Shown piece by piece: positions 2,841-33,165 of a DNA stretch of 56,642 bases (its first letter is position 1; the number at the start of each line of letters is the position of its first letter). The DNA is from Gemmatimonadota bacterium (GTDB lineage: Bacteria; Gemmatimonadota; Gemmatimonadetes; Longimicrobiales; Gaopeijiaceae). The stretch lies in NCBI GenBank assembly GCA_007126575.1, contig SLBA01000176.1, forward strand, positions 1 through 56,642, read 5' to 3'. The position numbers were made by a program, and so were the translations under genes. The notes beneath the pieces were generated by a model, which saw nothing but the letters and a program-made list of their open reading frames with translations, ran no database searches and was not told the origin of the DNA.

Positions 2841-3212
2841 ATGAGCCGTTCCGTGAACAAGATCATTCTCGTGGGCCACGTGGGTCGGGATCCTGAGGTT
2901 CGAAAGACCCAGAGTGGCACCCGGGTCGCGAATCTCTCACTCGCGACCAACTACCGATCCGGCGCGGGGACCGAAGAGATGGAGGAGAAGACCGACTGGC
3001 ACCGGATCGTGCTCTGGAACCGACTCGCCCTCTTCGCCCAGGAGTACGTGACGAAGGGAGACCGGGTCTATATCGAGGGGCGGCTCGGGTACGACGAGTA
3101 CGAGCGGGACGGTGTCACGATCCCGACGGCCGAGGTACATGTGCGCGAGCTGGTCCTGCTCTCTCCCCGGAGAACCGAGGTGAACGGCGAGGCGACGAGC
3201 GAGGCGGCCTGA
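2841..3212 (+). CDS. ssb: single-stranded DNA-binding protein
   Basis: A 123-residue OB-fold protein that coats single-stranded DNA in replication, recombination and repair. It opens with NKIILVGHVGRDPEVR and continues with the family's TDWHRIVLWN and KGDRVYIEGRL segments. The OB fold fills about residues 1-105. The usual acidic C-terminal tip (DDDIPF type) is missing; the protein ends in TSEAA, so contacts with partner proteins may differ or belong to a second SSB. A strong Shine-Dalgarno (aaggagggt, 2829-2837) precedes the ATG at 2841. It lies downstream of polA and converges on the sigma-factor gene at 3280. Confidence 0.93.
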   Translation: MSRSVNKIILVGHVGRDPEVRKTQSGTRVANLSLATNYRSGAGTEEMEEKTDWHRIVLWNRLALFAQEYVTKGDRVYIEGRLGYDEYERDGVTIPTAEVHVRELVLLSPRRTEVNGEATSEAA

Positions 3213-3218
3213 GACAGC

Positions 3219-3257
3219 GCCCTCCCCTCTCCCCTGAAGCGTCGGAGGGCGGGAGGG
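3219..3257. terminator. hairpin between convergent ssb and sigma-factor genes
   Basis: CCCTCCC (3220-3226) pairs with GGGAGGG (3251-3257) in the 67-base gap between two convergent genes. The loop is long and there is no clear U-tract, so a bidirectional terminator is plausible but not certain. Confidence 0.35.
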
Positions 3258-3279
3258 TGCGGACCTCGCGACCTTCGGG

Positions 3280-4140
3280 TCAGTTGGCGGTCCAGAAGGC
3301 CGAGAGGGAGTCTCCGTGTGGGCTGTCGCGGAGCTTCTCGAAGGCGCGGTTCCGGATCTGACGGATCCGCTCCCGGGTGACGCCCAGGAGGGTGCCGATC
3401 TCTTCGAGGGTCCGCTCTTCCCCGTCGTCGAGGCCGTAGTACAGGTAGAGGATCTTCCGCTCACGCTCGGTCAGGTAGTTCTCGAACATTGTCTCGAGGA
3501 AGTCCCGGCGGGCCGCTGCCTCGACGTCCTCCTCGATGTCGTCGGACTCCATCCCGGCGAAGCGTTCGCCAAAGGATGCGCTGTCCCGGTCCCCTCGATC
3601 GATCGGGGCATCCAGCGAAAGCTCGCTCGCGGCGACCCGGCGGAGTGCCCGGACCGTGTCGACCGGCTCGTCCATCTCCTCGGCGATCTCCTGCACCGTG
3701 GGAGACCGACCGAGCGACTGTGTGAGCGCCGTGTCGGTCCGTGCCAGGCGGGCGAGGTTGGAATTCTGGTTCAGGGGGATCCGCACGGATCGGGTCTGCT
3801 CGGCCAGCGCCTGCAGGACCGTCTGGCGAATCCACCACACGGCGTAGGAGATGAACTTCACGCCCTTGTCGGGATCGAACTTCTTGACCGCCTTGAGGAG
3901 TCCTTCGTTTCCGATGCACACGAGTTCGGCCAGCCCGAGGCCCCGACCCTGGTACTTCTTCACGTACGAGATCACGAACCGGAGGTTCGCGGTCACGAGT
4001 CGCTCCGCCGCTTCCTTGTCCCCCGCACGAGCCCTGCGGGCCAGGGCCCGCTCTTCCTCGGGGTCCTGGATTAGGGGATATTTTTCAACATCTTGCAGAT
4101 ACTGATCGAAGGAATCCAGACCGCGAGAGGACGAGAACAT
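3280..4140 (-). CDS. RpoD-family sigma factor without region 1.1
   Basis: A 286-residue sigma-70 family protein. Region 1.2 is near residues 10-30, region 2 holds NLRFVISYVKKYQGRGLG and KFISYAVWWIRQ (-10 recognition), region 3 follows, and region 4 ends in TLLGVTRERIRQIRNRAFEKLR (-35 recognition). Region 1.1 is absent. In region 2.2, where most primary sigmas read LIQEGNIGL, this protein reads LVCIGNEGL. That is a non-conservative change at the core-polymerase contact. A second, more canonical RpoD-type factor lies at 19667, so this one is probably an alternative group 2 sigma or one of two short housekeeping-type factors. The gene stands alone, 170 bases from the leftward operon upstream. 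Confidence 0.9.
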   Translation of the reverse strand: MFSSSRGLDSFDQYLQDVEKYPLIQDPEEERALARRARAGDKEAAERLVTANLRFVISYVKKYQGRGLGLAELVCIGNEGLLKAVKKFDPDKGVKFISYAVWWIRQTVLQALAEQTRSVRIPLNQNSNLARLARTDTALTQSLGRSPTVQEIAEEMDEPVDTVRALRRVAASELSLDAPIDRGDRDSASFGERFAGMESDDIEEDVEAAARRDFLETMFENYLTERERKILYLYYGLDDGEERTLEEIGTLLGVTRERIRQIRNRAFEKLRDSPHGDSLSAFWTAN

Positions 4141-4310
4141 TCGTTCCGAAGAACCTCGCTGGAGGGTGGGAAGAGAACCCGGGGAACCGGGTTGAGCACT
4201 GCGTATCTGTTCTCAGGCCGAAAGAATGGTCGGGACTGAGGTTGAACGGAAGATCTGTGACTGTATCGTGAGGAAACGGTCCCAAAAGCTATACACAGCC
4301 ATGGGTCGAG

Positions 4311-5417
4311 TCAAAGGTGGACCCCGTTTTCTCCGGACGGTTCCCGCGGGACGTGGTCCTCGGATTTCACTCCCTTGAGCGGCGCGCTCGAGGGGCCGTC
4401 CTCACCCATGTCGGCGGTGGTGTGCGGGGTGGGCTCCTCGAAGGAGTCGTCGGTGGGGTCGGGAGCGTTTCGGGGGAGCAGGAGGACATGGGGATCCCCC
4501 TCGAGCGTCATCGGGATGCGAACGCCCCAGCTGAGCGATTCCTTCTCGCCCGGGCCCCGGGATGCCGGGCCGAGCTCGACTTCCCACGTGCGAAGGGGCG
4601 ACCGGTAGAAGAAGGCGGGACCGTCCGGTCCGGTCACGAACCACCCGTCCTGAAAGGTCCCACGACCGACGCTGGCACTCCAGCCCGCGGGGGTACCGCG
4701 CAGCAGGCGCTTCCCGCCGTCGGACGGGGGCCGTGGGATCCAGTCGGGAACCGCACGACCCGTCCTCCATCCGAAATCGCCCGCGAGGTGGCGGGCGACC
4801 CCGCTGCCCAGAACGGTGGCGAACCGGCACGCTCGCAGGCGAGGCTTCAGACGAAGCATCGCGAGTAGCCAGAGAACCAGCGCCGGGATCACGAAGAGCC
4901 CGGGGCCGGTCCATGCACCCAGGACCAGCAGGACTGCGAGCGCGGCTCCCGCGCCCTCCTCGCGGGACAGGGGTCCCCGACGAGGCCGCCCAGCGTCCTC
5001 GTCGGTCCCGTCCGACCCCCATGCATTCAGGAGCTCCCCTCCCAACCGCAGCCCCTGCGTGGAGCCCGCCAGGACGACCGCGATCAGGACGGCGCCGACA
5101 TGGCTCCATCCGCTCCGACCGGGGTCCAGCGCCAGAACCGGCAGGATCAACGCGGTCGGCAGGACCGAGAGGGCGAGCACCCCGCGCCAGAGCTGACGGA
5201 CCCCCGGGGCGGCTCTCACCAGGAGCCCCGTCAGCAGGAGCAGGGTTCCGAGCGCTGCCGGGGCGGAGGTGGCGAGAAGCCCGATCCCACCTGCGGGTGG
5301 GGCGAGCGGGAGGAGCACGGTCAGCGCCAGGGGCACGACGAGAAGGAGAGGAAGGCTGATTCCCGCGGCGAGCGACAGGAGGATCAGTACGGCCCAGTCG
5401 GCGGGGATCCAGGTCAT
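4311..5417 (-). CDS. membrane protein of unknown function
   Basis: 368 residues with no recognised family. The N-terminal 120 residues contain four or five hydrophobic helices rich in Leu, Val and Ala. A charged linker follows near residues 130-150, then two more helices near 155-190. The C-terminal 180 residues are soluble, with Trp-rich strands and a Pro/Asp/Glu-rich tail. It starts 2 bases after the stop of the flavoprotein gene (5420-6706) and is the last gene of a four-gene leftward operon. A role alongside the methyltransferase and flavoprotein is inferred only from position. Confidence 0.75.
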   Translation of the reverse strand: MTWIPADWAVLILLSLAAGISLPLLLVVPLALTVLLPLAPPAGGIGLLATSAPAALGTLLLLTGLLVRAAPGVRQLWRGVLALSVLPTALILPVLALDPGRSGWSHVGAVLIAVVLAGSTQGLRLGGELLNAWGSDGTDEDAGRPRRGPLSREEGAGAALAVLLVLGAWTGPGLFVIPALVLWLLAMLRLKPRLRACRFATVLGSGVARHLAGDFGWRTGRAVPDWIPRPPSDGGKRLLRGTPAGWSASVGRGTFQDGWFVTGPDGPAFFYRSPLRTWEVELGPASRGPGEKESLSWGVRIPMTLEGDPHVLLLPRNAPDPTDDSFEEPTPHTTADMGEDGPSSAPLKGVKSEDHVPREPSGENGVHL

Positions 5418-5419
5418 GC

Positions 5420-6706
5420 TCAGCCCATCCAGTGGGTCGAGGGGGATGGCTCACCGGGGGTTCCGAGGGCCTTGTCGCTCCACGCCGATGGGGTGAAGAG
5501 CGCCCGGGGCGAGAGGCGATCACCGGTGATTCCCACGAGGGTATCCGCGCCGGCCGCACGTCGGCTCAGGATCGTCACACCGAATCGGCGAAGGAGGGGG
5601 GAATCGAGCCCCCGGTCCAGAATCTTCTGAATCCTCCGGCCCGGAGTGAAGGCACGCCGGATCGATCGGTCGTACTGCTGCATCATCGCGGCCAGGGTGT
5701 CCGGGGCATCCAGCCCCCGGCGAAGCAGGGGAGCGGCGAGTTCGGCGCTGCGGAGGGCCCGATAGATCCCCTGCCCGGTCAGGGGGTCGTAGTATCCGGC
5801 TGCGTCACCGACCAGCAGCACCCGTCCCCGGGCGGCCCAGCGGACCGGAGAATCGAAGGGGCCGCTGGCGCGGGGCGGGCCGAGAGGATCGAATCGATCC
5901 GCATCGTCGGGGAGCAGGGCATGCAGCGCTTCCCGCCCGAGCCCCTCCGGGTCGGCGCGCAGCCGATCCGCGTAGCGGCGGGGGTCCACCACCACGGTAT
6001 GACTCCAGATCGACCGACCCGGTACGGAGCCTTCGTCCGCATGGGGGGCCGAGCGCGCGACCGGAGCGAGCCCTGAGGTGAATGGGCCGCCGAGAAGGAG
6101 GTGGCCGAGGGGTTCGGTCGGAGGCGGCCCTTCGAGGTGCCAGGAGAGCGATGCCTTGATTCGCCGTGCGGGCCGGGACCGCGCTCCAGCCGAGCGCGCC
6201 ACCACCGACCGGAGCCCGTCGGCCCCGACCACGATGCGGGGTTGCATCTCCCATACCCGGTCGGAGCCCACCTCCCGGCCTCGCACGAGGGGGATGCCCC
6301 TGCCGAGTTCCAGCCCCTGAAGGTGGAAACCCTCGAGGACCCTGACCCCGCTGGCGCGGGCCCGGTCGAGGAGGGCGTGGTCAAAGGCTCCCCTCCGGAT
6401 TCCGAGCGCGTGGCCCACCCCAGAGCCGAAGTGTCCCACGGCGCTCGGGCCTTCGGGGGTCCCGAGTCGCCAGCCCCGCAGTTCGACCGGGCGGGTAGCG
6501 AGAACGGTCTCGAGCAGACCGAGGCGCTCGAGGGTCGCCACTCCCCCGGGATTCAGACACTCCCCGCAGGCTTTCTCCCGTGGGAAGCGGGCCCGGTCCA
6601 CCAGGGTGACTCGGAGTCCGCCGGCGCCGAGCAGGCCGGCCAGGGTGCTCCCGGCCGGCCCCCCTCCCACCACCAGCACGTCGGGCTCTCCGGTCGCGGG
6701 CGTCAA
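5420..6706 (-). CDS. FAD-dependent oxidoreductase, geranylgeranyl-reductase family
   Basis: A 428-residue flavoprotein of the group that includes geranylgeranyl reductases and UbiH-like hydroxylases. The FAD-binding Rossmann motif DVLVVGGGPAGST is at residues 9-21. CGECLNPGG follows at about 47-55, as in geranylgeranyl reductases. The second FAD motif, VLLVGDAAGYYDPLTGQG, lies near residue 300. The likely start is TTG at 6706, because TTGA overlaps the stop of the upstream methyltransferase gene by 4 bases. Substrates of this family are isoprenoid or polyketide lipids. The pairing with a methyltransferase suggests modification of a membrane lipid or quinone-like compound, but the substrate cannot be read from the sequence. 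Confidence 0.88.
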   Translation of the reverse strand: MTPATGEPDVLVVGGGPAGSTLAGLLGAGGLRVTLVDRARFPREKACGECLNPGGVATLERLGLLETVLATRPVELRGWRLGTPEGPSAVGHFGSGVGHALGIRRGAFDHALLDRARASGVRVLEGFHLQGLELGRGIPLVRGREVGSDRVWEMQPRIVVGADGLRSVVARSAGARSRPARRIKASLSWHLEGPPPTEPLGHLLLGGPFTSGLAPVARSAPHADEGSVPGRSIWSHTVVVDPRRYADRLRADPEGLGREALHALLPDDADRFDPLGPPRASGPFDSPVRWAARGRVLLVGDAAGYYDPLTGQGIYRALRSAELAAPLLRRGLDAPDTLAAMMQQYDRSIRRAFTPGRRIQKILDRGLDSPLLRRFGVTILSRRAAGADTLVGITGDRLSPRALFTPSAWSDKALGTPGEPSPSTHWMG

Positions 6707-7491
6707 GACGGGACTCCATCGAGGAGGAGCCGGAAGGGAAAGTGCCTGCGGATCTGCACGCTTTCGAAGCCACCGGCGTCGGCCAGAGTCGCGAGCTCGG
6801 CGCGGGTGTGGGAGCGCAGAACCGAGAGTGGACCGTCGATCCGGGTGACGGGGTCGGCTCGCCAGAGGGTGGAGCCAAGGAGCCGGGCGCCGGCATAGTG
6901 AAGCGGATGGCGTTCGAGATCGCTCACCAGCACCCGCCGCCTCGCGACGCGCGAGAGCTCCCGGAGAAACCCCCGGGCCTCTTCGTCGGAGAGGTGATGA
7001 AGGGTGAGCGAGGAGATGATCACATCGATGCTCGAGTCGTCGAAGGGGAGGGCGAGCGCGGTTCCCTGCAGGAGTCGGCCCCTCGTCCCGGCCCCGGGGG
7101 ACGCACGACCCTCGCGGTCGCGGGAAGGGGGGCTTCTCTCACCCGCCTGCCGCGCCAACTTCAGGACCCGGTGGTTCAGGTCCAGCCCGGCCCACTCCAG
7201 CGTGTGCCCTCGACGAGACAGCGCGTCGGCCAGCGATCGAGGCAGTGATGCGTTTCCCGTCCCCACGTCCAGAAGGGTGACGGGTCTGCCGAGGGAACGG
7301 GCCACCGAGACCAGGGGGCCGACGAGACCTCGCCGGCCGCCCAGGTGGCGGTTCACCGCAGCCATCGCGTCGAGCGAGCGCTCGAGGTCCTCGGACGACA
7401 CGCCCTCTCCATCCAGGATCTCCGGTTCGGAGGATCGGCCGGGGAGCCGCAACCGGACCGGAGGGAGAGTGGGACGTTCCCGGGTCGCCAT
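6703..7491 (-). CDS. SAM-dependent class I methyltransferase
   Basis: 262 residues. Motif I is VTLLDVGTGNASLPRSLA (about residues 70-87). An acidic residue follows at the end of strand 2 (WAGLDLN), then ALPFDDSSIDVIISSLTLHH as motifs II and III. This is the methyltransferase-11 pattern. A Ser/Arg/Gly-rich insertion sits between motifs I and II. The ATG at 7491 overlaps the stop of the outer-membrane protein gene in a TGATG arrangement, so translation is probably coupled. The 3' end overlaps the flavoprotein start by 4 bases. In several phyla this methyltransferase and geranylgeranyl-reductase pair goes with a type III polyketide synthase; none is visible here. Confidence 0.87.
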   Translation of the reverse strand: MATRERPTLPPVRLRLPGRSSEPEILDGEGVSSEDLERSLDAMAAVNRHLGGRRGLVGPLVSVARSLGRPVTLLDVGTGNASLPRSLADALSRRGHTLEWAGLDLNHRVLKLARQAGERSPPSRDREGRASPGAGTRGRLLQGTALALPFDDSSIDVIISSLTLHHLSDEEARGFLRELSRVARRRVLVSDLERHPLHYAGARLLGSTLWRADPVTRIDGPLSVLRSHTRAELATLADAGGFESVQIRRHFPFRLLLDGVPS

Positions 7492-9317
7492 CAGCGCCTG
7501 CCCTCCCGACCCACGCCCGGAAACTCCGACATGACCCCGCTTCGGCGGGTCCGCTCGAGTTCGCTGCTCCGAAATTCGCCGAGGATCCCGAGCCACTCCC
7601 GGGCGTGGATTCGGAAGACCGGCTCCCGGGGGGCGTCGCGGCCCAGGGGCATCGCCAGATCCGCGCGAATCACGGCCGAGCTTCCGGCCGGAAACCCGAT
7701 CCGGAGCCCGGCTCCGACCGAACCCTGCCAGCCTGAATCCCTGCCGAACGGGACATCCGCCGCATACATTCTGCCCACATCTCCAAAGAGGGTGACGCCC
7801 AGATCCATCAGCTCCGGGAAGGGGCCGGGGAGGAGAATCCGGTCCTCGATCGATACCAGGAACCTCCGACCCCCGGGCCAGGCGTCCTCGCGGTGCCCGC
7901 GGAGTCCGTCCGGTCCTCCCAATGTAAACTGAAATGGCCCTTCGACTCTCCAGCCGGCCTGCAGGGCCGCCCGCATGACGAGAGTCTGGGGGAGCCCCAC
8001 CTCGATAGGACGGTAGAGAAAGGTATGCAGTTCGGCGAGGACATCGCGACTCCCACCCCCGGAGTCCTGCAGCTGGCGCCCCTCGACCGAAGCGTACAGC
8101 TGGCCGACCGCCTGGCTCCCCGCGAACCCACCGAAGAGATCCAGTCGCCCGAACAGGTCGCCCGGTTGATTCAGACTCTGGCCGAGGGTAACAACGACCT
8201 CGCGGCCGGTGGGAACGTCCTGAAGCCCCCGGAGGGCATCCAGCCCCCGTCGCTGAGCGAACTCGATCCTGCGAACTCCCGCCATCACGTTGACCCGGAC
8301 CGTTCTGCGGTCGGTGAGCTGTCCGGAAAGGGAAGTGGAGTGCTCGGGGGAAACGTCGAACTGTGTACCGAAATCCCGGCCGACGATTCCTCCCGCACTG
8401 CCGACCGGATCGGTTCGGACCCATTCCGTCGACAGCCCGGTCCCCAGCATCAGGAGGTGGCCGGGAACCCCGAAGCGGCGAGCGACGGTGGCCTCGGCGT
8501 ACCCCTCGGTCACGGGAAGCACGATGTGCGAGAACTCCCCGTCGTCCGGCACCACCCAGTTGTAGAGGTCCGTGCGGGTCGAGATCCGTTGTCGGAAGGC
8601 GTGTGTCCCCACCTCTCCGAGGAACGGGTGTTCGAACATCTGGGTGCCCGATGACCCGACCCTCGTGCGGGATCCCGACAGCTCCAGGTCCCACCCGCTG
8701 CGCCCGAGCCGGGGAATCTCCAGCCGCGCTCCGGTCGCCTTATGTTCCATCCGCTCCCGATGGAAGACGCCGACGGCGGCCCCCCGCCCCAGGAAGTTCT
8801 CTTCGACGAGCGAGGCGCCGTCGAAGAGGAGCCCCTCCTCGAAGCGAATGCCGATCGAAAGCTTCGTGGTCCACTCGTCTCGGGTGTCGACCAGGACGTG
8901 CCGCGTCCCGTCCGGTTGCGGAACCGAGAAGACGTCCGCCGAAGCGATGAACCGGAAGCGACGGAGAATCCGAGCGGACTCCTGCAGCATCAGGGGGTTG
9001 TAGCAGTCCCCCTCGGAGAAGAGCAGTTCGCGGGCGATGAAGGACTCCCGAGTGCGAACATGGATCCGGTTCGCCGCTCGATAGGCCCAGCGAAGCCGCC
9101 CGTCTTCGGGGATCGAGGCAGGGTCGAAGATCGAGTGATTGTCGATGAAGATCTCCGAGATCCGACCCTCGGGACAGGGCCCGGCGATCTCGGCATCGTC
9201 GGGTGGGGTCTGGGCCCCGGCCGACGATGCCGACACCAGTGCGAGGCCCAGAAGGAGCAGGGCGACGCACGGCATCTTCGATGTGGAGCCTGGTTCGGTC
9301 GGCGGATTCGGACGCAT
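7491..9317 (-). CDS. Omp85/BamA-type outer-membrane barrel with one POTRA-like domain
   Basis: About 608 residues from the chosen ATG at 9317. A second possible start at 9275 gives the compact signal peptide MPCVALLLLGLALVS, cleaved after AGA. A POTRA-like domain (ISEIFIDNH to VLVDTRDEW) covers roughly residues 50-150. The rest is a barrel of alternating strands. The C-terminal part has DGLRGHREDAW, matching the conserved RGY/RGF lid motif of Omp85 proteins, then strands ending in FRIHARE. A single POTRA and a barrel of about 450 residues suggest a surface-antigen or TamA-like protein rather than BamA itself. It is the first gene of the operon with the methyltransferase and flavoprotein. Confidence 0.8.
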   Translation of the reverse strand: MRPNPPTEPGSTSKMPCVALLLLGLALVSASSAGAQTPPDDAEIAGPCPEGRISEIFIDNHSIFDPASIPEDGRLRWAYRAANRIHVRTRESFIARELLFSEGDCYNPLMLQESARILRRFRFIASADVFSVPQPDGTRHVLVDTRDEWTTKLSIGIRFEEGLLFDGASLVEENFLGRGAAVGVFHRERMEHKATGARLEIPRLGRSGWDLELSGSRTRVGSSGTQMFEHPFLGEVGTHAFRQRISTRTDLYNWVVPDDGEFSHIVLPVTEGYAEATVARRFGVPGHLLMLGTGLSTEWVRTDPVGSAGGIVGRDFGTQFDVSPEHSTSLSGQLTDRRTVRVNVMAGVRRIEFAQRRGLDALRGLQDVPTGREVVVTLGQSLNQPGDLFGRLDLFGGFAGSQAVGQLYASVEGRQLQDSGGGSRDVLAELHTFLYRPIEVGLPQTLVMRAALQAGWRVEGPFQFTLGGPDGLRGHREDAWPGGRRFLVSIEDRILLPGPFPELMDLGVTLFGDVGRMYAADVPFGRDSGWQGSVGAGLRIGFPAGSSAVIRADLAMPLGRDAPREPVFRIHAREWLGILGEFRSSELERTRRSGVMSEFPGVGREGRR

Positions 9318-25250: not shown

Positions 25251-25386
25251 GGTGGTTCGTAGCTGGTCGGCGGGGAAGGGACGGGCCCCGGACGGGGGCC
25301 GGATGCCGGAGCCTGCCGGCGGCTGGAAGCTACCGAAGCCGCGGGCCGAATGCAAAGCTTTCAGGGGACGCAAAGGGGGAGGGGGG

Positions 25387-25866
25387 ATGAAAGAGGCGGA
25401 GCGTTTTCGCAGCGTGATGAGCCATTTCGCCACGGGAATCACCGTGGTGACCGGTGCCGACGCCGAGGGACAGGGAGTTGGGCTCACCGCGAACGCCTTC
25501 ACCTCGGTGAGCCTCCGGCCTCCACTGATTCTGGTCTGCCTCGCCAACGAGTCGCGTTCCAGGGAGGTCTTTCTCGCCACCTCCCGCTTCGCCGTCGGGA
25601 TCCTCCGGAGCGGAGACGAAGCGCTGGCCCATCGCTTCGCCGGCGACACGCGCGACGCCCGGTTCGACGACCTCGCCTTTCGCACCGAGGTGACCGGGGC
25701 GCCCGTGCTGGATCGGGCGCTAGCCTGGCTCGACTGCCGGCTCTGGGACTCGGTCGAGGCCGGAGACCACACCGTTCTGTTCGGCGAGGTCATGGCGTGT
25801 GGGGTGAGCGGAGACGCCGATCCGCTCGTCTTCTTCCAGGGGAGCTATCGTACGGTGACCCCGTGA
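25387..25866 (+). CDS. flavin reductase-like FMN-binding protein
   Basis: A 159-residue protein of the flavin-reductase split-barrel family. Landmarks are MSHFATGITVVTG, GLTANAFTSVSLRPPLILVCL, the SRSREVFLATSRFAVGIL segment and a C-terminal DPLVFFQGSYR. Such proteins reduce FMN with NAD(P)H for a monooxygenase partner or act alone. No partner monooxygenase is beside it. A purine-rich SD (aaagggggagg) precedes ATG 25387. Confidence 0.9.
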   Translation: MKEAERFRSVMSHFATGITVVTGADAEGQGVGLTANAFTSVSLRPPLILVCLANESRSREVFLATSRFAVGILRSGDEALAHRFAGDTRDARFDDLAFRTEVTGAPVLDRALAWLDCRLWDSVEAGDHTVLFGEVMACGVSGDADPLVFFQGSYRTVTP

Positions 25867-25908: not shown

Positions 25909-27366
25909 ATGAACTCGGCGTCGAACTGGCGTGGTGGGGTCCCGGCGTTCATGACCGGGCTCGCACTGCTCATGCTGGGTGAGGTGGCCGCGGGGCTCCT
26001 CCTCTACGGGGGGCCGGGATTCCTGCCTGCCCTCTCCGTGATCCTTGCGGTGCTCTTCGTTTCGCTGGCGGTCGGGGTGATGACCGACGACGGGGCGCGC
26101 GGAAGTGCCGCCGTCGAAAACGCCCGACGCCTTTGGCTCGCCCTGCTCTTCTCCTTCAGCCTGGCCGCCGTGTTCGCGGTCGGGTGGGAGATCTTCCGGG
26201 GATTCGGAGCGCTCGGACTCAGCCAGGGAATCGGGCTGGCGGTCCTGGTCGCGCTCCCCTTCTATTTCGGCGGCCGAATGCTCGGCCACCTGGCGGGACT
26301 CCCCGGAACCCGGGGGCGAGGGCGAGTGGCCGCCTCGGCCCTGCTGGGAGCCGCGGTCGGCGCCCTGGTCGTCGGCTACCTTTTCTTCCCGAACCTCTCG
26401 CCCACGGCGGTCATCCTGCTGTCTCTGGTCGCGGTTTCGGGGGGAGCGCTGGTTCATGGGTGGGCGCTCGACGAGGTCTTCTGGGTCGACCGCTCGGAAC
26501 GCCATGTCGGACGGTCCGGCATCATCGAAGTCGAACGATGGCTCCGGGGGAACCCGCGTACAGCCCACCGTGCGATCCTCGAAAACTCCCGACTTCGAGC
26601 GCTGGTCGACGGGCGGGGTGAGCCGGTGACCGCCGAGGAGCGGGCGGTGCTCTCCTTCGCCGAGTCGGTCCGACGGCCGGTCGTCGACCCGGTGGACTCC
26701 GCGGCGCCCGTGCCCCCCGAGAAGATCCTTTCGGTGGGGCTGGGCGCCGGGGTCCTGGGAGAGGCGATGCGTCGCCGATTCGGGACGGCGACCCACGACG
26801 TTCTGGCGGCCGACGCGGCGGGGATGCGCTTGGTACTCGACGAGCTCGAGGGGGTCGAGGGGGTCGAGGGCGAGGCCGGCTCCCATTCGAATCGCCCAGC
26901 GAAGGTGATCCAGCTCGACCCGACGGTGTTTCTCCACCAGGCGACGTCGCCCTTCGGGTCGGGTCCCGCCGACTGGATCCTGGTCGACCTGCTGAGCCTC
27001 CCGGGCGCCCCGGCGGGCGCCGATCTGCCCCCGGGGGCATTCGCCCGGCTGCGGGACCACCTTCGCCCGGGAGGGCTCCTGATCCTCTTTCCCCTCCTGG
27101 AACTCCCCGGTGGACCGGACCTCACGACCTCGGTCCTCGAAGCGGGGGGGGTCTTCCGGGAGTCCAGCCTCTACGTGGGGGGACGGGAAGTGGTCCCATC
27201 GGCGGATCTTCCCCGAGATCGCGGCTATCCCCGACTCCCCGCCCCGGCCGGGTCGAGAGGGGCCTTCCTCGTGGCCCGAGACCGACCCGGAGATCAGCCG
27301 TGGCCGGAGTCCGTCGAGGGGTTCCTTCGCGTCCCCCGGCTCGGAAGCCCGGGCCGGGCGTCATGA
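25909..27366 (+). CDS. six-helix membrane protein with degenerate spermidine-synthase-like domain
   Basis: 485 residues. The first 200 hold about six transmembrane helices (for example LALLMLGEVAAGLLLYG and VAASALLGAAVGALVVGYLFF). The last 250 form a Rossmann-like soluble domain: KILSVGLGAGVLGEAM, an acidic strand end (VLAADAAGM), VIQLDP, DWILVDLLSLPG and RLRDHLRPGGLLIL. This is the order seen in membrane-linked polyamine aminopropyltransferase-like proteins, but the glycine loop and catalytic Asp pattern are weak, so enzymatic activity is doubtful. Its TGA overlaps the ATG of the next gene (ATGA), which ties it to the Mre11/Rad50-like fusion. Confidence 0.72.
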   Translation: MNSASNWRGGVPAFMTGLALLMLGEVAAGLLLYGGPGFLPALSVILAVLFVSLAVGVMTDDGARGSAAVENARRLWLALLFSFSLAAVFAVGWEIFRGFGALGLSQGIGLAVLVALPFYFGGRMLGHLAGLPGTRGRGRVAASALLGAAVGALVVGYLFFPNLSPTAVILLSLVAVSGGALVHGWALDEVFWVDRSERHVGRSGIIEVERWLRGNPRTAHRAILENSRLRALVDGRGEPVTAEERAVLSFAESVRRPVVDPVDSAAPVPPEKILSVGLGAGVLGEAMRRRFGTATHDVLAADAAGMRLVLDELEGVEGVEGEAGSHSNRPAKVIQLDPTVFLHQATSPFGSGPADWILVDLLSLPGAPAGADLPPGAFARLRDHLRPGGLLILFPLLELPGGPDLTTSVLEAGGVFRESSLYVGGREVVPSADLPRDRGYPRLPAPAGSRGAFLVARDRPGDQPWPESVEGFLRVPRLGSPGRAS

Positions 27367-29612
27367 AGGTCGCTCACCTCTCCGACCTGCAGCTGGGGCT
27401 GCGCGTCTTTCCAAAGGTCGAGCGGGGATGGAATCTCAGGGAGCGGGACCTGGCGGCGATCTTTCACACTGCTGTCCAGGAGCTGGCGCGACTGGGACCC
27501 GACCTGGTGCTCCTGAGCGGAAACGTTTTCGATCGCCCCGACCCCCCCTCCACCGCCTTTCTGACGATCACTCGCGGGATCCGGACCCTTCAGGATCTCC
27601 TCCCCGGCGTTCCGATCCTCGCGATCGCGGGGGAGCGGGACACCCCCAGGGCCCCCGCGGACCCGGGTCCCGTGGCCGTGCTCGACGCCCTGCCCGGAGT
27701 CGAGGCGGCGTCGGGAGCTCCCCGCGCGGTGCACCTGAAGGCCCTCGGGGCCCACGTCCTCATGGTTCCCTACCGGGCCGCGATCCGCCCTCCCTTTCCT
27801 CAGCTCCGCCCCGATCCGTCGGCCCGCTGGAATCTCCTCCTCCTCAGGGGGAACCCCGGGGATCGACCGGGTGCCCTCGCACTCGATCCCGAGGGGTGGG
27901 ACTACGTGGCACTCGGGGGAGGACGCTCCGCGCGGGTCTGGGGACCCGAGCCGGGCCGAGTCCGTACGGCGGGATCCCTCGAGCGCCTGGGGGTCGACCC
28001 CTGGCGGGAGTCCGCGGTCGAGAAGGGGTTCTGGACCTTCGACCTGGTCTCGCACGAGGGCGAGTTTCACCCCCTTCCCGCGCGGCCGGTGATCGATCTG
28101 GCTCCGGTCCGCGTCGAAGAGGATTCCGGGGAGGGCACGCGGCGCCTCCGGGAGCTCCTCGAGGGCCTCCCCGGGGGGATCGAGGGCAAGATCCTCCGGG
28201 TCCGGCTTCGCGGCCCCCGGGCCGGGATCGAGGAGGGGGTCTCACCCGGACTCCTTTCGGCGATCCGGCGTCGCGCCGCGCATCTCGAGCTCCAGGCGGG
28301 GCCCGGTGACGAGCGGCTCCCGGAATCTCTGGCAGAGCGACCCGCCGCGGGCCCGGCGAGCAGGGGGGATCTCGTCTGGACCCCCACGGGACGGGAGCCT
28401 GGGGTCGAGTCCGAGGTGCGCCTCACGCCGGGACTGCTGGGCGTGATCGGCGAACGTCCCGAGGATCGCCTCCTCCTGAGCGAGCATTTCGGAGACCCAT
28501 CGGGCGATCCGCACCCCCGTCTCCTCTCCCTGCGGCTTCGGTGGCCGTCGCCCGAAGACCTCCCCTCTTCGGCCTTCCGCCCCTGGCGCTCCGGTCCGAG
28601 CCCCGATCCCGCCCGGCCCGGGGGCGTGGTCGCTCCCCGCATCGCCACGCGCGACCCGGCGCGCCTGCAGACGCTCAGGGCCGACTGGATCGAGGCGGTG
28701 GGCGACCTCGAGGCCATGAACCTCGAGTGGGTACGCGAACGTCAGGAGGCGGATTCGCGGCTGACCGCCTACCGGGATCGCGCCCGGGAGCTGCGGGGTC
28801 GGCTTCGAGCCGTCGAGGAGGCCGGGGCCGAGGCCGAATGCCCCACGTGCGGTCGTCCACTTGCCGAGGCTCATCCCGAGTTTCGCGATGCGCTGCGGGA
28901 GGAGTGGGAGGACGTGGTTCAGGACGGACAGTGGTGGAAACGGAGGAGGGAGCAGCTCGAGGAGAAGCCCGACACCCTGCGCGATCTGGACCGCCGGGTG
29001 CTGGAGCTGCAGTCCGAGCTCGAGGAGGCGGCCGAGGGGATCTTCCCTTCCGATCCGGAGGGCTCGTCCACCGCTGGAGATTCCCCGGCCACGGGAGATC
29101 CCGGCTCCGACACAGGTCCCCCGCCATCGCCCACATCCGCCTTTCTGCCACACGACCCGTTCGGTCTGGCCGGTGACCTTCTCGGCCGAATCACCGGGGG
29201 GCGCATCCAGGCGCTGGTCCCGGAGCCCGACACCGGGGCCTGGTTCGTCCGGAGTCTCGCGGGAGAGGTTCGGCGACCCGCCCCCGGCGACCTACCCCTC
29301 GTATCGGCGGCGATGCAGCTTGCGGTGGCGACCCGGGAGCGCGCGCCCTTCATCGTCCTCCGCCAGTTCGCGGCGACCACCGACGACGACGAGGTGGTGA
29401 GCCTCCTTCAGCTCCTGGGGGCGACCCGGTTGGCGATCCCCGTGCTGGTCCTGCTCACCCCCGCGCTCGCGGAGCGCATCCCGGAGCTCCTGGTCGGCGC
29501 GATCGAAGTCCAGCGCGACGACGATGGACGTGCCCGGATCCGGGAATCGGGCTCCGGACGGCCGGTCGTCACGGTTCCGGCGACAATTCGAGCAGCTCGC
29601 CCTCCAGCCTGA
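27363..29612 (+). CDS. single-chain pseudo-SbcD/SbcC (Mre11-Rad50-like) fusion with retained zinc hook
   Basis: 749 residues. Residues 1-240 follow the SbcD/Mre11 phosphoesterase order, but its metal ligands are changed: DxH reads DLQ (8-10), GD reads GN (53-54), GNHD reads GERD (90-93), the conserved His is Arg 162, and GHxH reads GGGR (185-188). Residues 350-385 resemble the Rad50 N-lobe with a lost P-loop (VIGERPEDRLLL). A charged helical arm (about 432-490) leads to the zinc-hook motif CPTCG at 493-497 and a return arm to 555. A Pro/Ser linker precedes a Rad50 C-lobe-like end: RITGGRI (609-615), signature replaced by APGDL, Walker B replaced by FIVLRQF. Hydrolytic activity looks lost; a structural, hook-mediated role is inferred. 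It overlaps the convergent hyuA end by 44 bases. Confidence 0.75.
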   Translation: MKVAHLSDLQLGLRVFPKVERGWNLRERDLAAIFHTAVQELARLGPDLVLLSGNVFDRPDPPSTAFLTITRGIRTLQDLLPGVPILAIAGERDTPRAPADPGPVAVLDALPGVEAASGAPRAVHLKALGAHVLMVPYRAAIRPPFPQLRPDPSARWNLLLLRGNPGDRPGALALDPEGWDYVALGGGRSARVWGPEPGRVRTAGSLERLGVDPWRESAVEKGFWTFDLVSHEGEFHPLPARPVIDLAPVRVEEDSGEGTRRLRELLEGLPGGIEGKILRVRLRGPRAGIEEGVSPGLLSAIRRRAAHLELQAGPGDERLPESLAERPAAGPASRGDLVWTPTGREPGVESEVRLTPGLLGVIGERPEDRLLLSEHFGDPSGDPHPRLLSLRLRWPSPEDLPSSAFRPWRSGPSPDPARPGGVVAPRIATRDPARLQTLRADWIEAVGDLEAMNLEWVRERQEADSRLTAYRDRARELRGRLRAVEEAGAEAECPTCGRPLAEAHPEFRDALREEWEDVVQDGQWWKRRREQLEEKPDTLRDLDRRVLELQSELEEAAEGIFPSDPEGSSTAGDSPATGDPGSDTGPPPSPTSAFLPHDPFGLAGDLLGRITGGRIQALVPEPDTGAWFVRSLAGEVRRPAPGDLPLVSAAMQLAVATRERAPFIVLRQFAATTDDDEVVSLLQLLGATRLAIPVLVLLTPALAERIPELLVGAIEVQRDDDGRARIRESGSGRPVVTVPATIRAARPPA

Positions 29613-31659: not shown

Positions 31660-33165
31660 ATGGAACTGGTCCCTTCCTTCGAAGAGTTCGTGACGTTGGC
31701 GCGTGGGGCCCGGGTGGTCCCGCTCCGCGGCGAGTTTCTTTTCGATATCGATACGGCGGTCACCGCCTACCACAAGCTGGCGCGTCCCCCCTTCGGCTTC
31801 CTTCTCGAGTCCGTGGTCGGAGGTGAAACCTGGGCCCGCTACTCCTTCCTGGGAACCTCGCCCGCCGCGGCCTGGCGTCTGCAGGGCGACCGGGTGTCGT
31901 GGTGGACCCCCGAAGACGGGTGGACTCCGGTCGAGACCGGCGACCCCCTCTCGGACCTCGATCGCCGACTCCAGGAACGGACTCCCGCCGAGGTACCGGG
32001 CCTGCCCCGCTTCTGGGGCGGCGCCGTAGGGTACTTCGGGTACGACGTGGTGCGCCAGATCGAGCACCTTCCCGACGCCCCCGTCGACGGGGGCGACCTG
32101 CCGGATGCACTGATGGTCTTCACCGATGTGGTGCTGGCGATCGACAACCTCAAGGGGCGGGCGATGGCGATCCGGGCGGTCCCGGTCGAGCCCGGGCTGG
32201 ATCGGACCGAGCTTCGCCGGCGCTACGAGGCGTCGCGGGCGGCGATCGAGAGCACGGTCGAGACCCTTCGGACGGCACCGGGCCCCTCTCCCCTCTCCCT
32301 GGGCCGGGAGCCCGAGGGCGACCCTCCCTTCCGGAGCACCTTCGAGCGGGCCGATTTCGAAGGGGCGGTCGAGCGCGTCCGGGAGTACATCCTGGCCGGC
32401 GACGCCTTCCAGGTGGTGCTGAGCCAGCGCCTCGAGATGGAACTGCGCGCCGAGCCCTTCGATCTGTACCGGGCGCTGCGCACCCTGAACCCTTCGCCGT
32501 ATCTCTACTTTCTCGAGATGGACGGCGTACGCCTGGTGGGATCCTCACCCGAGGTGCTCACCCGGGTCGAAGACGGCCGGGTGACGCTGCGCCCGATCGC
32601 CGGTACCCGGCGCCGTGGTGCCACACCCGAGGAGGATCGCGCGCTCGCCGAGGATCTGCGGGCCGACGAGAAGGAGCTGGCCGAGCACCGCATGCTCGTG
32701 GACCTGGGTCGCAACGACGTGGGGCGGGTGGCTCGCTACGGCACCGTCACGGTTCCCGACCTGATGGTGATCGAGCGCTACTCGCACGTCATGCACATCG
32801 TGTCGCAGGTCGAGGGCGAGCTGCGCGATGGGCTCTCGGCGCTCGACGTCCTGCGCGCCTCCTTCCCGGCCGGAACGGTCTCGGGCGCCCCGAAGATCCG
32901 CGCCATGGAGATCATCGACGAACTCGAACCGGTACGACGCGGTCCCTACGCGGGGGCGGTGGGCTACCTCGGCTACGGCGGCCGAACGATGGATACCGCG
33001 ATCGCGATCCGAACGGTCCTCGCTCACGAGGGGCGAGCGTACGTTCAGGCGGGTGCGGGCATCGTGGCCGACTCCGACCCCGGCCGGGAGTACGAAGAGA
33101 CCCTGAACAAGGCGCGCGCCCTCCTGAGGGCAGCCGTGATGGTCGGAGAGGGGAGCGGGGACTGA
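31660..33165 (+). CDS. trpE: anthranilate synthase component I
   Basis: A 501-residue chorismate-using enzyme making anthranilate for tryptophan synthesis. The N-terminal domain keeps the LLES motif (FGFLLESV) of the tryptophan feedback site, so it is probably end-product inhibited. The catalytic domain has LNPSPYLYFLEMDG, GSSPEVL, RPIAGTRRRGATPEED, DLGRNDVGRV, FPAGTVSGAPKIRAMEII and a C-terminal AGIVADSDPGREYEET. PIAGT, with Ala where PabB has Lys, marks it as TrpE. No glutaminase gene adjoins it; PabA at 54293 could supply ammonia to both enzymes. Confidence 0.95.
   Translation: MELVPSFEEFVTLARGARVVPLRGEFLFDIDTAVTAYHKLARPPFGFLLESVVGGETWARYSFLGTSPAAAWRLQGDRVSWWTPEDGWTPVETGDPLSDLDRRLQERTPAEVPGLPRFWGGAVGYFGYDVVRQIEHLPDAPVDGGDLPDALMVFTDVVLAIDNLKGRAMAIRAVPVEPGLDRTELRRRYEASRAAIESTVETLRTAPGPSPLSLGREPEGDPPFRSTFERADFEGAVERVREYILAGDAFQVVLSQRLEMELRAEPFDLYRALRTLNPSPYLYFLEMDGVRLVGSSPEVLTRVEDGRVTLRPIAGTRRRGATPEEDRALAEDLRADEKELAEHRMLVDLGRNDVGRVARYGTVTVPDLMVIERYSHVMHIVSQVEGELRDGLSALDVLRASFPAGTVSGAPKIRAMEIIDELEPVRRGPYAGAVGYLGYGGRTMDTAIAIRTVLAHEGRAYVQAGAGIVADSDPGREYEETLNKARALLRAAVMVGEGSGD

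Follow-up and report, generated by a model that had tools for sequence, protein, structure and literature searches.

A fused Mre11-Rad50 descendant with lost catalytic motifs and a conserved zinc hook in a family of Gemmatimonadota

Known Mre11-Rad50 fusions and other hooked proteins

Proteins joining Mre11 and Rad50 are already known, namely R555 of Mimivirus and its relatives; for R555, Walker A, Walker B and almost all nuclease residues are described (PMC3175470). The gene investigated here is found on the forward strand of contig SLBA01000176.1 (Gemmatimonadota bacterium, GCA_007126575.1), a stretch of 56,642 nucleotides analysed as a whole and called the window below. It encodes a putative pseudoenzyme with the same arrangement as R555, being similar to Mre11 in the N-terminal part and to Rad50 in the C-terminal part of one chain. 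Unlike R555, which keeps its working motifs, the homologues in the GTDB family of the window genome (f1) have lost them, and their fusion arose from a local gene pair.

The SbcCD pairs of other Gemmatimonadota groups (f2, f3, f4, f5 and f9) have the same domain order and a homologous hook module, in f3 also at the same location, and the homology is certain. They differ by the preserved phosphoesterase and ABC motifs, by long arms (373 vs 128 residues) and by being encoded in two genes. A phosphoesterase adjoining an AAA_27 coiled-coil ATPase, a pair of YhaO/YhaN type by our reading (COG0420/COG4717), is also present at a separate locus of the window genome. In this case the active-site motifs are kept and no CxxC hook was seen in the sequence read.

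Outside SbcCD, RloC is a Rad50/SMC-like protein with a CxxC hook of regulatory role, Walker motifs and a tRNase domain (PMC2610378), not an Mre11-Rad50 devoid of both active sites. Nor does the archaeal SMC-related protein ASRP, also Rad50/SMC-like, seem to be one (PMC9389158); the NCBIfam matches for ASRP were weak. The Rad50 hook is a very stable, zinc-mediated constitutive dimer that is separable and interchangeable with the SMC hinge (PMC6969161). In the open-access subset of the literature, we found no publication describing an inactive Mre11-Rad50 that retains its hook, and none naming both SbcCD and Gemmatimonadota. This agrees with an earlier examination of the window without database searches (the sequence-only reading), in which no described family was known to lack both active sites and still conserve the hook in one chain.

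Catalytic motifs and descent of the window protein

The seven metal ligands of Mre11 are D8, H10, D49, N84, H173, H206 and H208 in P. furiosus numbering, with H85 as the catalytic His of motif III. In the alignment to intact relatives, these ligands correspond to D, Q, N, E, R, G and R in the window protein, the first Asp alone being retained, while R occupies the position of H85. The motifs DxH, GD, GNHD, H and GHxH are thereby read as D8-L-Q10, G53-N54, G90-E-R-D93, R162 and G185-G-G-R188, and the protein lacks the full ligand set of active phosphoesterases. In the Rad50 half, the P-loop is replaced by G363-ERPEDRLL, the signature by RRPAPGDL and Walker B by VLRQF, RITGGRI stands against LTDGRYT and the His switch is absent, leaving none of Walker A, signature, Walker B and His switch. 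CPTC (493-496) is present and lies between helices 432-490 and 504-558 in an AlphaFold model of low confidence. The sequence-only reading had described the same losses in both halves (DLQ, GN, GERD, Arg 162, GGGR, P-loop, signature, Walker B) and the same kept CPTC, and the alignment confirmed them all. This ORF (open reading frame) is present as a single copy in the genome (3.68 Mb, 96.5% complete), and its closest named relative, with 85% identity, is a Gemmatimonadales metagenome-assembled genome (L031).

Searches with the single sequence gave marginal matches, with Pfam Metallophos at E=0.001, NCBIfam SbcD at 4.8e-6 (26.5 bits, for a cut-off of 77.65) and Rad50 around the hook at 1e-4. The window protein matches an intact f3 SbcD directly at 7.9e-38. 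Chance resemblance is excluded, despite the weak single-sequence scores, because the profile of the family's Rad50 half matches the intact relatives with an hhalign probability of 100% (E=2.5e-43) over the hook and the C-lobe. P. furiosus Rad50 C-lobe structures were matched at 1.2e-8, while the remnant of the N-lobe was placed by multiple alignment alone. The AlphaFold model, built from four sequences, has low confidence (mean pLDDT 54, pTM 0.36); searched with Foldseek, it gave Mre11 structures as top hits (1.8e-10) and a Rad50 ABC half (1f2u_D, 1.7e-5, TMt 0.67), which is supportive, not decisive. The SbcD and SbcC likeness proposed before was recovered both in the profiles and in the low-confidence predicted monomer fold. 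Based on its sequence relationships, the window gene is a descendant of an Mre11(SbcD)-Rad50(SbcC) pair, and a convergent look-alike is ruled out by synteny together with the profile comparison.

Distribution, motif loss and selection in the family

From 121 f1 genomes searched, homologues were found in 107 (E <= 0.001); part of these, mainly from genus g12, match weakly (E ~1e-4 to 1e-5) and may not be members. In all 67 homologues inspected the CxxC is kept, even where the residues between the cysteines vary (CGGC, CSAC, CRSC), whereas Walker A and the Walker B Asp-Glu are found in none of them (0/67 each). As previously proposed, the hook is conserved, in contrast to the positions that were once catalytic. 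The last residues of motif III are RD in 62 of the 67, SE in one and CD in one, the other 3 not being parsed by the script.

Within 47 aligned f1 rows, H85 is replaced by R except in the two rows of genus g10 (S and C), and only two rows still have H206. The family-wide losses at the nuclease site are thus N84/H85 to x/R plus H206, while H10, D49 and H208 are retained by most rows, and most relatives lose two or three ligands. The window protein is the extreme of ligand loss and its genus the most eroded one. The change of H10 to Q is private to the window genome (G001 reads DLH), and the motif II D to N change and the H208 loss are limited to the window genus, except that H208 is also lost in G003. 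The erasure of both active sites stated in the sequence-only reading is true for the window protein, the nuclease losses of the family as a whole being mainly those of motif III and H206. The fusion into one chain is likewise true for the window protein and not obligatory, since 14 of the 47 rows consist of two adjacent genes. A split inactivated pair with CPTC is also carried by the single-contig genome G006.

Some copies deserve separate mention. The split pair of G003 (L072 1236-2489) keeps CPTC and has lost DxH separately, reading NPR. In G011 (C209:11573-12553) there is a second copy of the inactivated protein with the phosphoesterase only, a frame of 331 aa (amino acids) with 69% identity to the window protein over residues 2-315. 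In G025 (C62, L058/L114, genus g24), the fused gene appears broken into frames of 200 and 709 aa, either because the phosphoesterase domain is truly split or owing to a sequencing error.

Conservation is concentrated around the hook. From the 19 near-invariant columns (>=97%) of the Rad50 half, 18 are within residues 439-536, including both cysteines and Q-D-G-x-W-W. Some columns of the hook module are more conserved in the inactivated rows than in intact ones (W525, 1.00 vs 0.64; W515, 0.98 vs 0.73; also Q461 and A463), which is suggestive only, as the samples differ in size (47 vs 11) and in relatedness. The arms are shortened: the P-loop is separated from the hook by 128 residues in the window protein, 149-228 in the other f1 rows measured and 373 in intact rows, and the hook from the C-lobe by 114 residues in the window protein vs 267 in intact rows.

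The whole-gene pairwise ratio of nonsynonymous to synonymous substitutions (dN/dS, Nei-Gojobori) varies from 0.04 to 0.17, with dS saturated in some pairs. Against a relative with 86% identity, the whole gene gives 0.14 and the phosphoesterase and hook parts give 0.07-0.10, and in 6 of 7 pairs the least constrained segment lies between these two parts. The ORF is a real gene under purifying selection; a random or antisense ORF is ruled out by this selection and by the family-wide conservation, and a frameshifted pseudogene by the open frame in the single-contig genomes G006, G023, G026, G090 and G095. It could still be asked whether the gene is a decaying relic, with the hook persisting by chance, as additional ligands are missing in the window genus and 14 of the 121 genomes have no significant match. 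Such decay is very improbable given the low dN/dS, the open frames in complete genomes, the hook in every inspected homologue and the fact that this form arose once, at the base of a family that comprises dozens of genera.

Origin of the inactivated form

The orthologues of f2 and f3 are two adjacent genes with full motifs in the alignment. In f3 the gene order matches the window (flavin reductase, spermidine-synthase-like membrane protein, SbcD, Rad50, TrpE), and because of this shared genomic place we consider the window gene the inactivated orthologue of the f3 pairs. A pattern search of pairs sampled from f4, f5 and f9 recovered Walker A, hook and Walker B, with one P-loop falling outside a contig fragment and one f4 SbcD reading GSHD instead of GNHD. 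The hook module was found throughout the phylum (293 from 370 genomes).

In the trees, the 47 inactivated rows form one clade with support of 100/100. Fused and split forms are interleaved, and on the tree the fused label has to change five to six times, which rules out one obligatory fusion; secondary splitting and repeated fusion are indistinguishable. The simplest history is a working ancestral pair with one inactivation at the base of f1.

One f3 genome (G054, genus g49) has an SbcD reading DLH, GD, GDRD, H and GHHP and an intact Rad50. This gene groups with f1 and not with f3 (99/97; p-AU of 0.037 for holding f3 together). It is tentatively seen as an intermediate in which the nuclease was lost before the ATPase, if the placement is real, as long-branch attraction could also produce it. 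The same genome contains a second, intact-looking SbcCD pair (L195, G054:C23, about 2857-6599) with P-loop, hook and Walker B. The surrounding ORFs look phage-like by eye and a GDxHEF motif resembles the extra pair of G106 (L123); this copy possibly belongs to a mobile element.

A putative non-catalytic tether

The status of pseudoenzyme is well supported by the residues lost. We suggest, with a probability of about 0.6, that this inactivated Mre11-Rad50 acts as a non-catalytic zinc-joined dimer, as a tether or scaffold. The hook is kept in every copy examined despite the loss of both active sites, which suggests that it does a job of its own. That the hook module carries the selected function of a family-wide pseudoenzyme, tethering being useful in dozens of genera without nuclease or ATPase, has about even chances. 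If this is right, the protein would work like the tethering part of Mre11-Rad50; by its defining residues it is not an SbcCD nuclease or ATPase.

In the proposed series of events, two losses would have occurred in the f1 ancestor: that of the nuclease site, where GNHD of motif III changed to GxRD, and that of the Rad50 ATPase, with its Walker A, signature, Walker B and His switch. The distance from P-loop to hook would have been reduced to roughly between a third and a half of its former length, and many lineages would have fused the gene pair into one chain. The phosphoesterase fold is retained, as is the hook module of roughly 100 residues with both zinc-binding cysteines. Two copies may join constitutively through a Zn-Cys4 site at the hook apex, perhaps also through the Mre11-like heads. 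The result would be a short ATP-independent bridge with no ATP gating, holding together two bound sites, which could be DNA or a partner, perhaps the coupled membrane protein encoded upstream. More speculatively, the alignment suggests that the Arg in place of H85 could pair with the Asp that is left and so stabilise the metal site, now empty.

Some points weigh against this view. Residual metal binding is possible in most members of the family, as these retain D8, H10 and D49. We infer the catalytic death, like the zinc binding, the dimerisation and the tether role; missing catalytic residues are strong evidence of inactivity, but indirect. The AlphaFold model, of low quality (four sequences, mean pLDDT 54), covers the monomer only and is silent on dimers. 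Furthermore, a function away from DNA is conceivable given the coupling to a membrane protein.

Possible partners

Instead of a tether, the protein could be a regulator that modulates an active nuclease, which would be an additional SbcCD where one exists or else the YhaO/YhaN-type pair; hetero-dimers formed through the hooks or through the heads are one conceivable means. Candidate targets do exist. Several genomes of g25 and g26 contain a longer SbcC (~1030-1070 aa) with P-loop and hook, and G106 carries an additional, apparently intact pair (C160). The YhaO/YhaN-type pair of the window genome (G000:C185) looks intact, with a phosphoesterase of full ligand set (L045 4166-5509) and an AAA_27 ATPase at about 5500-8394 with an apparent transmembrane stretch; YhaO-like matches are found in 76 of the 121 f1 genomes (E <= 1e-15). 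However, 45 of the 121 have none at this cut-off, no CxxC hook is visible in the YhaN-like sequence of the window genome, and no canonical SbcC over threshold was found in that genome. On the point raised by the sequence-only reading, the window genome carries no normal sbcCD pair beside the inactivated gene. No single active partner is universal in the family, which weakens a pure regulator model, and we consider this role unlikely.

The second candidate partner is the product of the gene immediately upstream, whose stop codon shares an ATGA with the ATG of the window gene. In most f1 loci this gene overlaps the Mre11-Rad50 start by 1-4 nt or ends up to 8 nt away, while in several f3 loci the gap is >200 nt; some f2 loci are tightly coupled too. 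The f1 and f3 membrane proteins are orthologous (hhalign 9.3e-33) and occupy the same place in intact relatives. The f3 orthologue matches MFS_SpdSyn at 8e-30 and the window copy had no Pfam or NCBIfam match at the thresholds used, for which reason it may have diverged in parallel with the Mre11-Rad50 gene. A membrane-associated scaffold, in which the hook clusters a complex with this protein without any DNA role, would fit its conserved coupling in f1. Nevertheless, the same gene adjoins intact SbcD in f3 and the coupling is not specific to the inactive form, considering the tight f2 loci, and operon partners need not interact; this seems slightly less likely still than a regulator. The coordinates of these and the remaining features are given in Table 1.

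Table 1. Features of the window related to the inactivated Mre11-Rad50 gene and its neighbours.
Feature	Position	Strand	Evidence
Fused, catalytically degenerate Mre11(SbcD)-Rad50(SbcC) protein, 749 aa	27363..29612	+	Translation, homologue search, alignments, dN/dS, profile comparison
Putative pseudo-phosphoesterase (Mre11/SbcD) and capping domain, residues ~1-312; 6/7 metal ligands replaced	27363..28298	+	Profiles, alignment, Foldseek
Former motif III GNHD, now GERD, residues 90-93	27630..27641	+	Alignment; NH to xR as hallmark of family-wide inactivation
Former Walker A/P-loop, now GERPEDRLL, residues 363-371	28449..28475	+	Alignment; GxxxxGK[ST] in 0/67 homologues
Hook module, residues ~432-558, formed by an ascending helix, the CPTC loop and descending helices that carry the invariant Q-D-G-x-W-W	28656..29036	+	Column conservation; helices of the model
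CPTC zinc-hook motif, residues 493-496	28839..28850	+	CxxC in 67/67 homologues
Putative pseudo ABC C-lobe, residues ~599-718, with RITGGRI but no signature, Walker B or His switch	29157..29516	+	Alignment, profile comparison, Foldseek
Translationally coupled membrane protein, diverged spermidine-synthase-like domain	25909..27366	+	4-nt overlap; match to f3 homologues E=9.3e-33
Flavin reductase-like gene, upstream; start codon not settled	25384..25866	+	Pfam PF01613 5e-42; adjoins intact and inactivated copies alike
Anthranilate synthase component I (TrpE), downstream	31660..33165	+	Same gene family after intact f3 pair in L063; TrpE name by sequence reading, not family search

Significance

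It is a standing question whether the hook and its tethering have a function separable from the nuclease action driven by ATP. Work on it has so far relied on mutants and on chimaeras, among them the hook/hinge swap (PMC6969161). In this bacterial family, the separation of hook and catalysis would have been made in evolution, with the catalytic residues gone, the arms short and the hook invariant. For these bacteria, active processing of DNA ends does not necessarily follow from an SbcC/SbcD-like annotation.

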